From a virus: a stretch of DNA of 24,770 bases. Of the stretch, positions 3,001-18,793 are shown piece after piece (position 1 is the first letter of the stretch; each line of letters starts with the position of its first letter). The stretch is from positions 1 through 24,770 of IMG/VR virus record IMGVR_UViG_3300020411_001981; one strand, 5' to 3'. Under the pieces are notes generated by a model. The model had not been told where the DNA came from. It saw only the letters and a list, made by a program, of their open reading frames with translations, and did no database searches. A program made the translations under genes and the position numbers.

Positions 3001-6000
3001 CGTAGACCTCGCGCTCGGCAAGGATCTCAACAAGCTCGGGCTGGATCAAGAGGCCGTCGGCTTCTTGTTTTATTACCCCCTCGTTATCCTGATGTTTTTT
3101 TATTTCTACAAATTCCCCCAATGCCGGATCAAAAACCAAGACAATGTTATTGAGAGATTGGTTCGGCTTGGTGCTATCGAGGGTTACGTTGGTTCCGGGC
3201 GCAAGGCCCATAAGCATACTGGGTATATCCGCGGGATCGCGTACACTGTGCAGAACGTGGGGGGAATTAAAGGCTTTAGCCGTGTCCCCTTTCGCAGGCC
3301 CCTCACCTTTTTTCTTCTTCGCAGCTTTCTTCTTCGCGGCTTTCTTCTTCGCGGCTTTCTTCTTCGCAGCTTCTTCTGCTTCTGCTTTTCTTAAAGCGGC
3401 AACGCGCTCGCGCTTTTGCTCACGTTCAAGCTGATCTTCCAACTGTTGTTGGCGTCTGCTTGCACCTTCAATCTCAGCGCGACGGTCGTTAATTGTTTTT
3501 AACCCCGTCAAAACATCCCTCAGAGATCTAAGAAGAGTCAGTTCCTGTTGGCGCGCGGGGCGCTCCTTTGCCTCGGGGTCGTTAAAATCTTTTTCTTTGT
3601 CAGCAATTAAGTTGCTGACACTCCCGATGTCCGCATCATTTGGCCGTTCGGTTAAGGAGTTTGCGCCTATTAGTCGGCCTTGGCGCCCGCCACCAGCTTT
3701 GTAACCCTTCCTTCCTAATCTTCCGCTTTGCGCTTTATGCAGGCTTTCAAACTCTTCCCGCAATCCGGCAAGTCTGTCCAAAAGCTCTTCTTCTATATTA
3801 TCAATCGCGCGAAGGTCTTCTTGTTCCCTAAGGTCCCTCCGCAAGGGCTGCATAGCTTTCTCTACAAACTCAATAGCTGTGCGCTCAAGCTCCTCATCAG
3901 TTCTTCTATACTCTAGATCTCTTTGACTTTCAGTGGCCCTGAGTCTTTCGAGCACACCTTGGACGAGCTGCTCTTTATCAGAAACAGAAACAATGGACTC
4001 TCCCGTACCCGACGAAGTGTTACCCCCACCAGCTCCTTCATGAAGTGTTTCTTCGATAGCGTTTTTTACATCCTCTTCGTCAGCGTTATCTAGGTTTTGG
4101 CCTGCCTCTTCCTCGGTGACACCTTTTAGCAACTGTTCTTCAAGGTAACCCTTGGACTCTCTAAGAGCAGCCCTGTCACTATTGTCCTTGGTAGTGTTGA
4201 GCTTTTCTTTAAGAGCTTTATCTACTACTGCTAAAGCAGCTTTGCGGTCCGCTTCATCTGCTTGAGCTGGAGCAGCAATAACATTGAAAAAATTAGCTAG
4301 ATCTACTTCTGCTGCTCTAAAAGCTTCTGGGTTAGTTGGGTCCTGTATAATAAGACCAAGAGCTTCAAGGGCGGCGCGGGTATTATTTTCCTGTAACTGA
4401 GCTTGTTCTGATTCTGAATCGGCTTCAGAACTTTCGGCGTCTTCTTTTTTACTCTGCTCCGCTTCGGGATCGCCTGTTGAGGTTTCAGCTGACTTTGCCC
4501 TGAGTATTGAAAGCTCAGTTATAAGGGTGGCCACTTCACCCTCTAATCTCTTTTGCTCCTCTTCGCTGGTTGCAGCAGCTAGTTTAACTTGAAGATCAAC
4601 AATTTCTTGCTCAATCTTATCCGCTGTATTTATATCATGGTCACTCGATGACTCATCCTTGCTCTGCTCCCGCTGTTTTTCCCGGTCCTTAAGCCGTGCC
4701 GCAATAGCTTCTTCTGGGAGAGAACGCGCAGCAACTTGGAGCCCACCAAGTATTTCTTCTACTGTAGCGGCGGATTGAGGGCTACCGCTCTCTTCAAGTT
4801 TAGCTACTAGTTGCTTGTGAATTTTTCTAGCAATTTTGGGTAGCGTTTCCCGCTCTACTTGCGCTTGCTCGCTTAGTTTTGTTAATTCACTCTTAAAAAG
4901 ACCCTTCAAACCACGCCCGCCCTTTGCAAGTGTGGGTGCTCCAGCCCCTAATGTGACTCCGTATATAGCCCCCATTCCCCCTTCCTTCAGCCTGTCCATG
5001 AAAGGACGGTCCATGTCAGAAGCCGAAGTCCCAGCCATAGCCGCAGACCGTGCGAAAGTGTTAAGAAAAGCATCCAAACCTTCTTGCAGCCCTTCAAATG
5101 CCGCACCCCTAGCTATAGGGCCGCGTAACCACGCAAACTTTATGCCGTCCTTTACTACCTTATTCGCAACATCTGTAACAAAGTTATTAAAGTTCACATA
5201 TTTTTTGTTACGTAGCTTTTCAAAAACACGTTTGACCTGTCCCGTAGTCGCCCCGCCAGTAACCCAGTCTTCCAAACCACCCATGCCCAGACGCTGGAGA
5301 CCCACCACTGTAGCCACAGTGAACATCCCCCCCATTACAGCCCCACCAAATGCACGGTCGTGAATCTCTTCAGCAGATAACGGTTTTCCGTCCGATCCCG
5401 TAGCGCCTTGGAGCGCCATGTGTATATCCCCATACGTGTGTGCGGATGATCGCAAAAACGCTGGGGCTGAAATAGCAGGATACTGCCCCGCCCTAATCCC
5501 CCGGCCAATCGCCGTAAGCGCATCGACTGCCGCTTCTGACCGCATAGACATAGGCAGTGCAGCAGAAACTCTTTTGGCTGACTTAGAGTTTTTAATTACG
5601 TTTTCAACGAACCGCTTGGGCAAAACTCCCTGCGGAAGGTTACCCAAAGTCATTTTGCTAAGCCCGCCATCAGTAGCTCGCAAAAATTGGCTTTTCAAAG
5701 CAACTTGGCCTTTGGCCCCACTCACTGTCCCCGACCACCCCGGCAGCAAATTGTCTGCTTCCTTGGCATATTTTTTTACTGAAGGAAGCGTCTTGATGTA
5801 CCCGCGCGCATACGCTTTTTCTAGTGACAGACGCATTGTATCTTCGGCCCCGTCTTTAAGAATGTTCCTAAGACCAAACCCGAAGGCCCCTGTGATATAA
5901 GATTTTGCTGTCGCTGTAAGGCCGTACTTAGATAGAGCAGCAGAAGCATAAGCGGTTGACCCCACACCAGCTGTGGGGGTTGCTAAAGCAAAAGACGCAC

Positions 6001-16644: not shown

Positions 16645-16869
16645 ATGTCTGGGGAACCCGTAGATACCACAGTGCCCATCCTCACTAGCGAGGCTAAAAT
16701 GCTCCAGCAGATGATTTCCAAGCTGGACGAGCAGCTTCAGGAGTTGGAGTTCAACAAGCTCAAGTTATGTACGGTGCGTGACGCGCTGTTAAAAAACCTT
16801 GGGCTGACCGTTGAGCAACTGGAGCTTCCGCTCGCTTTAGCGGAGGGTGAGGAACAAAGTTCCGACTAG
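16645..16869 (+). CDS. small coiled-coil protein
   Basis: A 74-residue protein from ATG 16645; a longer in-frame start at 16615 lies inside the upstream gene and is less likely. Residues 15-45 form a clear heptad helix (MLQQMISKLDEQLQELEFNK), followed by a shorter amphipathic helix and an acidic tail. Family is not recognised. It could be a dimeric adaptor for replication proteins. It is the last gene before the folded RNA and terminator at 16880-17010, so a transcript started upstream would end just after it unless the terminator is read through. Confidence 0.7.
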   Translation: MSGEPVDTTVPILTSEAKMLQQMISKLDEQLQELEFNKLKLCTVRDALLKNLGLTVEQLELPLALAEGEEQSSD

Positions 16870-16879
16870 GTAAGATCAA

Positions 16880-16969
16880 GGGGGTTTAGGAAATGCGGCG
16901 GGGTGTTGCAGCTCTGGTTAGTGATGTATCCTGTCCAGTAACCGCATAAAACTGGACTCCCCTAAACCT
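16880..16969 (+). ncRNA. candidate structured RNA with H-type pseudoknot upstream of DNA polymerase
   Basis: The pairing is visible by eye. Closing stem: GGTTTAGG (16883-16890) with CCTAAACC (16961-16968). Internal hairpin: GTCCAGT (16933-16939) with ACTGGAC (16951-16957), 7 bp with an 11-nt loop. Within that loop CCGCAT (16942-16947) is perfectly complementary to ATGCGG (16893-16898), giving an a-b-a'-b' pseudoknot inside the closing stem. A competing pairing, GGTTA (16916-16920) with TAACC (16939-16943), would break both inner elements. The intervening 34 nt show no strong stem. I do not match it to a riboswitch, ribozyme or tRNA I know. It could be a cis-regulatory leader of the polymerase gene, a free small RNA ending at the terminator, or an origin structure. 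Confidence 0.6.
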
Positions 16970-17010
16970 ACGGCCCTCACTGGTTCGTTCATTCCAGTGG
17001 GGGCCGTTTT
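16970..17010 (+). terminator. strong intrinsic terminator immediately before DNA polymerase
   Basis: ACGGCCC-T-CACTGG (16970-16983) pairs with CCAGTG-G-GGGCCGT (16994-17007): 13 Watson-Crick pairs and one G-U, with a 10-nt loop. TTTT at 17007-17010 follows, then ACTT. The stem starts one base after the closing stem of the upstream RNA. Its apical 5-mers CACTGG/CCAGTG repeat the ACTGG/CCAGT of the upstream hairpin, so strands could be exchanged. It ends about 10 bases before the polymerase ATG. Confidence 0.85.
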
Positions 17011-17020
17011 ACTTAAAACT

Positions 17021-18793
17021 ATGGTTACTTACGCGCTTGATTTTGAAACTTACTACGACAAGACCTGCAGTATCAGGACCCTCGGGCCTCTGGGTTACTT
17101 CTCTCACCCCGAGTTTGACGCCTATATGGTGTCGGTGGTTGGCACCGATGGGACGTCTTTTGTTGGGCACCCGAAAGACTTTCAATGGGATATCCTGAAT
17201 GATAATGTGGTTCTCAGCCACAATGCTTCTTTCGATGAAACCCTATATCTATATGGAGTTACCCAGTCGTGGTGGCCCGAAGTCAAACCAGCCGAGTGGC
17301 ATTGTACCGCAGATATGGCCGCGTATGTGCGGATTCCTCGCGCGCTCAAGGGGGCTGCTGAAGAAGCTTTTGGGCTCACGGTAGACAAGAGCACCCGCGA
17401 CAACATGAGCGGGAAGCGGTGGGAAAAAATGACGGACGAGTTCCGAGAAGAGGTGAGCAACTATGCGCTCGCAGACTCACAGATATGTCTGGACTTGTGG
17501 AATACCTACCAGAAGTTCTGGCCAGAGAGCGAGAAAACCATAAGCACCCTCAACAGAAGGATCGTCCAGCGGGGGCTACCCATCGACACGGATCTCCTGA
17601 AGTCCCAGCTAGAGGTAATAAACAGTAAATTATTTGAGGCCGAGGAGTCTATTCCGTGGTTGGGGAATGCACCGCTACTAAGTCGGAAAGCTTTCGATGA
17701 CCAATGTCGGGCCGTAGGTATTGAACCTCCGGGTAGCCTCGCCGCAACAGACGAGGAGGCACAGAAATGGATAGATTACCACAGCAAGAAACACGCATGG
17801 ATCGACGCGGTTCGTAGCTGGCGCAGAATCAACGCGCTCAAGAAAAAGATAGAGAGCTTCGACTTCGCCACTATGCCTGACGGGCGTTACTACGGCGGGA
17901 TCATGTACTTCGGGGCGCACACAGGGCGTTTCAGCGGGGGTGGGGGTAACCTGAACCTGCAGAATCTGCCGCGCGATGAGATGTTTGGTGTGAATTTAAG
18001 AAACCTGATTGCTACTAAGCCTGACAAAAAACTGATCGTTGCGGACCTCAGTCAGATTGAGGTACGTACTCTCTGCTGGCTGGCAGAAGACGAGACGATG
18101 TTAAAGGAAATCAAAGAATCCGAAGACATATACGAGGCATTCGCTATTCGGTTTGGGCAATGGGACAAAGAGAAAGGCCCCCTTAAACAAGACCCCAAGC
18201 TGCGCCACAAAATTAAGGCGATGGTTCTCGGCTGCGGTTACGGGGCGGGTAAAGCTCGGTTCGCTCAGATGTCGGGAATGGAACAGGAAGCCGCCGACGC
18301 GGCAGTCGATTTGTACCGAGAATCAATGCGGTCGGTAACAAAACTGTGGAAGTCGTACAACACAGACATCGCTACTTCTTACGATCTTAGCGTAACAGGT
18401 TACCTCACTCCATTTGTTGTCCCCCTCCCAAGTGGGCGGGTTCTCGACTACGGTGTTATTCGCACGGATGGGAAAGGGAGAGAACGACATTTCGTCTCCA
18501 AGTTAATGCGGCACGGTAAGAAAATAGCCGTAAAGCTTTGGGGTGGGTTCGTAGCAGAGAATGCCTCCCAAGCTCTCGCCCGCGACATTTTCAGCGATAT
18601 GCTTGTAAGGATACATGAAGCGGGCTACAAGATCGTGCTCCATGTGCATGACGAGGTGGTTATTGAAGCCTCCGCTGATGAAGCAGAGGATTCCTTGCAA
18701 CACATCCTGAAAATAATGTCTGAACCGCCCAAGTGGATATCTGATATTCCACTCGCCGCTGAAGGCTCAATCTTATCACGTTACACAAAATGA
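17021..18793 (+). CDS. polA: family A DNA polymerase with 3'-5' exonuclease
   Basis: A 590-residue phage replicase. The N-terminal proofreading exonuclease has D7 and E9 (YALDFETYYD), D72 (NASFDETLY) and Y148/D152 (YALADSQICLDLW). The polymerase domain has the GRFS/NLQN segment (302-316), motif A with D342 (VADLSQIEVR), motif B around K399 to G408 (KAMVLGCGYGAG) and motif C HDE at 543-545. There is no 5'-3' exonuclease domain, as usual for phage enzymes. ATG 17021 starts directly before the first exonuclease strand; GTG 16997 would start inside the terminator stem. No Shine-Dalgarno precedes it, and the leader is TTTTACTTAAAACT. The stop overlaps the next start as ATGA. Expression may depend on read-through of the upstream terminator. 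Confidence 0.95.
   Translation: MVTYALDFETYYDKTCSIRTLGPLGYFSHPEFDAYMVSVVGTDGTSFVGHPKDFQWDILNDNVVLSHNASFDETLYLYGVTQSWWPEVKPAEWHCTADMAAYVRIPRALKGAAEEAFGLTVDKSTRDNMSGKRWEKMTDEFREEVSNYALADSQICLDLWNTYQKFWPESEKTISTLNRRIVQRGLPIDTDLLKSQLEVINSKLFEAEESIPWLGNAPLLSRKAFDDQCRAVGIEPPGSLAATDEEAQKWIDYHSKKHAWIDAVRSWRRINALKKKIESFDFATMPDGRYYGGIMYFGAHTGRFSGGGGNLNLQNLPRDEMFGVNLRNLIATKPDKKLIVADLSQIEVRTLCWLAEDETMLKEIKESEDIYEAFAIRFGQWDKEKGPLKQDPKLRHKIKAMVLGCGYGAGKARFAQMSGMEQEAADAAVDLYRESMRSVTKLWKSYNTDIATSYDLSVTGYLTPFVVPLPSGRVLDYGVIRTDGKGRERHFVSKLMRHGKKIAVKLWGGFVAENASQALARDIFSDMLVRIHEAGYKIVLHVHDEVVIEASADEAEDSLQHILKIMSEPPKWISDIPLAAEGSILSRYTK

Follow-up and report, generated by a model that had tools for sequence, protein, structure and literature searches.

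Structured RNAs, the DUF2800 and DUF2815 motifs, reportedly precede the corresponding genes in phage replication modules, and in the pistol ribozyme the loop of a hairpin forms base pairs with one strand of a second helix. GOLLD and ROOL are structured RNAs of phages and prophages that are often located near tRNA genes and whose function is unknown; one GOLLD is located downstream of a Met-tRNA (PMC12286853). The manA and wcaG motifs are conserved structured RNAs of marine metagenomes and cyanophages (PMC2864571).

The RNA analyzed here was found in a virus record of 24,770 bases, the whole of which is referred to below as the window; the letters of positions 16880–17020 were read directly. 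As judged from sequence comparison and covariation, this RNA belongs to a large family of structured phage RNAs that is as yet undescribed. In line with the initial annotation, in which the fold was not recognized, Rfam 15 contained no match for the window RNA; with E-values up to 10, a single chance match on the other strand was obtained. Other family members had no Rfam 15 match except for a real tRNA in L153, and no description of the RNA was found in the literature, searched mainly in open-access journals. Newness is claimed for the RNA family only and not for its mode of action.

Locus, fold and covariation

The RNA is located in an untranslated gap of 151 nt, between the stop codon of the upstream ORF at 16869 and the ATG of the family A DNA polymerase gene (polA; 17021–18793, plus strand; PF00476, phrog_17), and no ORF of at least 60 aa was found inside this gap. 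Since the start codons of the window generally have no clear Shine-Dalgarno sequence, its absence beside the RNA is uninformative. For the ORF directly upstream (74 aa, 16645–16869), no match was found in Pfam or PHROGs, yet several relatives carry an ORF of comparably small size at the same place.

Inspection of the plus strand confirmed the three pairings proposed earlier. The outer stem P0 is formed by GGTTTAGG (16883–16890) and CCTAAACC (16961–16968), and hairpin P3 by GTCCAGT (16933–16939) and ACTGGAC (16951–16957). The pseudoknot is formed by strand PKa, ATGCGG (16893–16898), and strand PKb, CCGCAT (16942–16947), the latter within the P3 loop GTAA-CCGCAT-AAAA. PKa is followed by a conserved CGG and hairpin P2 (16899–16914), which is weak in the window copy, and then by the conserved and mostly unpaired CTGGTTAGTGAT (16914–16925). 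An additional helix, P1, pairs AGGA (16888–16891) with TCCT (16929–16932). The 8-bp closing stem is thus present, but at its inner end it overlaps P1, a helix conserved in the family; the bases AGG at the 3' end of the 5' strand of P0 are common to both, and full formation of both stems is impossible. Since P1 uses these bases, the true outer stem of the window is probably shorter than 8 bp.

The view that such pairings are unlikely by chance was borne out by shuffling. A 7-bp hairpin with a loop pairing to six upstream bases occurred in 18 of 20,000 dinucleotide shuffles, and none of these (0/20,000) also had the enclosing 8-bp stem. The fold energy of the window RNA corresponds to z = −3.9 relative to shuffles.

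Model R1 aligned 106 hits from 100 loci (alignment A7), which form 76 clusters at approximately 90% similarity; its E-values are rough owing to a short calibration. Pair counts were made on the 104 distinct sequences of A7. In this model alignment, which leans towards its own structure and on which the final counts rest, the covariation score was 0.564 against 0.150 for shuffled alignments and at most 0.135 for slid structures. The whole structure exceeded the shuffles in 500 of 500 cases for cells paired, double changes and covariation score, and it exceeded all slid registers. The MAFFT alignments A2 and A3 misplaced P3 or CTGG and were not used for the final counts; A2, aligned without the model, concurs for the pseudoknot and P2.

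The pseudoknot had 99.8% of its cells paired, with double changes at four of its five pairs. P2 had 98.1% of cells paired and double changes in 60 and 40 sequences at two variable pairs, while in P3 (93.8% of cells paired) each variable pair had 23–65 double-changed sequences, with 52–65 at the inner ones. P1 is weaker, with 67.5% of cells paired, although each of its four pairs has double changes. P0-type stems scored at least 9 in 34% of clusters versus 4% when the 3' flanks were swapped between clusters. G-U pairs are common in the helices, for example in 23 sequences at a single pair of the pseudoknot and in 18 in P2. None of the 106 sequences varies at columns 68, 70, 71 and 73 of A7 (T, G, T, A).

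The stems named in the initial annotation covary, and the pseudoknotted RNA is real. In the compact fold supported by the comparison, P1 encloses P2, and P3 follows, its GTAA-YCGCAT-AAAA loop pairing back to TGCGG inside P1; the unit can further be closed by an outer stem, P0, which is optional. The search patterns left P0, P1, P2 and P3 free, as well as those pseudoknot positions that were given as N. GCGGCGG (in some patterns), CTGGT (in most) and much of the 3' TAAxCxCAT were fixed, and therefore selection accounts in part for how conserved they are among the sequences found with the patterns.

Distribution and gene neighbourhoods

A search with the PolA protein, in which relatives were picked by protein alone and the RNA was not considered, yielded 25 relatives. 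The RNA core was found in all 23 that had enough upstream sequence, 59–81 nt before the polA ATG and down to a PolA identity of 67–68%. The pseudoknot variants of these relatives (TGCGG/CCGCA, TGCGT/GCGCA and TGTGG/CCACA) represent compensating changes.

Scanning viral contigs with patterns, irrespective of gene context, added many unrelated loci; matches in L035, L040, L083 and L084 were discarded as chance. The RNA is found in well over a hundred phage sequences in unrelated settings, and the family comprises at least the copies counted here from pattern scans. A virus record typically carries a single copy, with few exceptions. Two copies approximately 470 nt apart, with a small ORF (116–122 aa) between them, were observed in L052 (8042–8580), where they are located between the exonuclease and SSB genes, and in L171 (6939–7488), where no family was found for the small ORF.

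The RNA precedes the same kind of polA in approximately 26 of 76 clusters. In about two thirds of the clusters, the RNA has different neighbours, including unrelated genes and tRNA-Met, which argues against the earlier assignment of the RNA to polA or the replication module. These neighbours encode an SSB and an exonuclease (L052), a helicase (L075), a RusA-like resolvase (L133, weak match), a Sak4-like protein (L130), a PDDEXK nuclease (L247), a terminase (L177) and an FkbM methyltransferase (L059). In L047, the neighbour is a 699-aa protein (3411–5510) with no Pfam or PHROGs match, whose gene, in our reading, lies after a capsid-like gene. The RNA is codirectional with both neighbours in 55 of 106 hits, and in many phages (e.g., L247, L079 and L131) a start codon follows it within approximately 20 nt.

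The initial annotation also described the RNA as fused to an intrinsic terminator. A terminator-like hairpin is indeed present on the plus strand of the window, at about 16971–17007 (CGGCCCTCACTGG/CCAGTGGGGGCCG, then TTTT; 16971–17012 with its short T tract), but it has only four Ts, was not listed in a consensus terminator scan and forms a separate module outside the RNA core. The fusion itself is not supported, as many copies have no terminator. A hairpin or terminator follows the RNA in only some of the 76 clusters, and the terminator is missing at two polA loci, L079 and L218. In L064, L164 and L230, an intrinsic terminator comes after the RNA, and its T tract is good. In some members of the polA lineage (L016:3945–3985, L019, L234 and others), the hairpin 3' of the RNA is long, G+C rich and without a T tract, and may not be an intrinsic terminator.

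A same-strand tRNA-Met(CAT) adjoins the RNA in three separate lineages, while most copies have none; within 260 nt around 165 distinct copies, every tRNA found was tRNA-Met. In the L131/L153 lineage, the CCA end of the tRNA precedes P0 by a few nt and in L286 by approximately 4 nt, whereas in L268 the tRNA begins approximately 9 nt after P0. Given the position of the CCA end, tRNA maturation in the former two lineages would leave the 5' end of the RNA at P0. In the phage tRNA-Met genes L153:3305–3373 and L131:5321–5389, the D arm is shortened or irregular. Mimicry of a CAU anticodon by TTCAT was considered and rejected, as TTCAT is not conserved.

A pattern scan of all genome contigs gave five matches, three of them real. 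It led to the MAG QDN_3, labelled Bathyarchaeota, with eight dispersed copies; no archaeal SSU was found in this MAG, and the archaeal domain is a label only. In most of these copies, P0 is preceded at a distance of approximately 28 nt by a conserved ACCTTTAAGCGGTGATG box, which resembles an archaeal promoter and may act as one. Two copies (L127:2524 and L087:1951) lie between minus-strand ORFs and are antisense to both neighbours. A AACCYTTAANCGGTGATG box occurs approximately 22 times in QDN_3 with up to two mismatches (e.g., in L127, L128, L129 and L086). Its occurrences are mostly restricted to one strand of a small number of contigs, and only some are accompanied by the RNA; the box could be either a promoter module or an independent repeat.

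The model is specific: Verrucomicrobia phage P8625 has no copy, and among whole genomes it matched 1 of 300 from the phylum of QDN_3 and 3 of 388 from Verrucomicrobiota, the phylum of the Verrucomicrobia MAG. Relatives of the 699-aa protein of L047 were found in 15 of the same 388 genomes, and on these two counts Verrucomicrobiota is likely to be the host phylum of some members. The host of the window was not found, its terminase having only remote matches. In a collection of isolate phages, blastn with the motif sequences gave short chance matches only, and PolA relatives among the matches listed were less than 30% identical. The RNA has been missed so far because its phages seem to be without isolates and very few sequenced genomes carry a copy.

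Possible mode of action

Among the options named earlier (metabolite sensor, protein-binding autoregulatory site, stable small RNA, replication origin), the stable small RNA fits best. With moderate confidence, we suggest from the sequence data that the RNA of this undescribed family would be a discrete or processed phage ncRNA of about 80–110 nt acting in trans. This reading is favored because of the varied neighbours, the placement beside tRNAs, the antisense copies of QDN_3 and the self-contained fold; the ACCTTTAAGCGGTGATG box before most QDN_3 copies, the intrinsic terminators of L064, L164 and L230 and the usual single copy per virus record also speak for it. The RNA would be cut from phage transcripts, beside tRNAs through tRNA maturation, or it would be made as its own transcript, terminated by a hairpin in those copies that have one. 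A surface that binds a host or phage macromolecule, through which the RNA would act in trans, could be formed by its invariant unpaired bases (A before PKa, CG before P2, TGGTYA, GTAA and TAAAA). Since the RNA is repeatedly placed beside tRNA-Met, the translation apparatus would be the first candidate partner; three lineages suggest this link. The full proposal, a new class of small phage ncRNA that is released beside tRNA-Met in some phages and whose target in trans is the translation apparatus of host or phage, is put forward with low confidence.

The main rival is a leader acting in cis, either a riboswitch or an element for protein binding or antitermination. It would control the next gene by means of the terminator or by occluding the start codon, and we regard it as possible at a distinctly lower probability. 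The codirectional orientation that most copies in dense phage operons share with both neighbours counts against action in trans and fits a leader too, as does the repeated position before the same kind of polA. A leader would also agree with the hairpin or terminator 3' of the RNA in a subset, the closely following start codons and the aptamer-like appearance of a compact pseudoknot with invariant unpaired bases. However, the downstream genes are unrelated and have no metabolic theme, the terminator is often missing and does not overlap the RNA, and copies adjoin tRNA-Met or, in QDN_3, are in some cases antisense to both flanking genes. While a riboswitch combines an aptamer with a gene-control platform before related genes, here the core is conserved, the genes are unrelated and there is no common platform.

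It is unlikely that the RNA is an element of RNA processing or stability, namely a ribozyme that cleaves itself or a ring-like fold at which a 5'–3' exonuclease would stall, so that downstream RNA is protected. Its size, junction and pseudoknot are within the range of known small ribozymes, and flaviviral xrRNAs, likewise composed of a three-way junction and a pseudoknot, stop bacterial RNase J1 (PMC5760640), but none of the ribozyme or xrRNA models of Rfam showed similarity, and the L3 loop of mosquito-borne flavivirus xrRNAs pairs downstream, whereas the P3 loop here pairs upstream. A DNA element (origin, packaging site or mobile repeat), which the dispersed copies in one MAG and the common replication-gene neighbourhoods might suggest, is very improbable given the free use of G-U pairs in the helices, which favors RNA, and the structural genes and tRNAs in other neighbourhoods.

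New RNA families with such depth of covariation are rare, and a pseudoknotted RNA retained by so many unrelated phages probably serves a need of theirs. The alignment, the model and the host leads make its function directly testable.

Comparison with described RNAs

The likeness to the pistol ribozyme is topological only: the RNA described here would have a swapped domain order, the conserved bases do not correspond, and there is no Rfam match. With flaviviral xrRNAs it has in common only the topology of a compact three-way junction with a pseudoknot; the pairing partner of the loop is on the opposite side, and there is no sequence similarity. The DUF2800 and DUF2815 motifs are similar in setting in that the module of the window includes a DUF2800 protein, but no Rfam match was obtained, and the RNA precedes polA and is found in many other modules. 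The manA and wcaG motifs precede metabolic genes, whereas the RNA described here has no such theme and no Rfam match.

GOLLD and ROOL are nearest by setting, being phage-encoded with a tRNA nearby, as is the case here for tRNA-Met(CAT) in three lineages. They are several hundred nt long (GOLLD often exceeds 800 nt) and form multimeric cages, whereas the phage RNA described here has about 80–110 nt; sequence and fold are unrelated, and their Rfam covariance models were not matched. If the proposed action in trans is true, the RNA would represent a compact counterpart to GOLLD and ROOL across a wide range of uncultivated phages and, in addition, a multi-copy RNA gene in at least one cellular genome bin.
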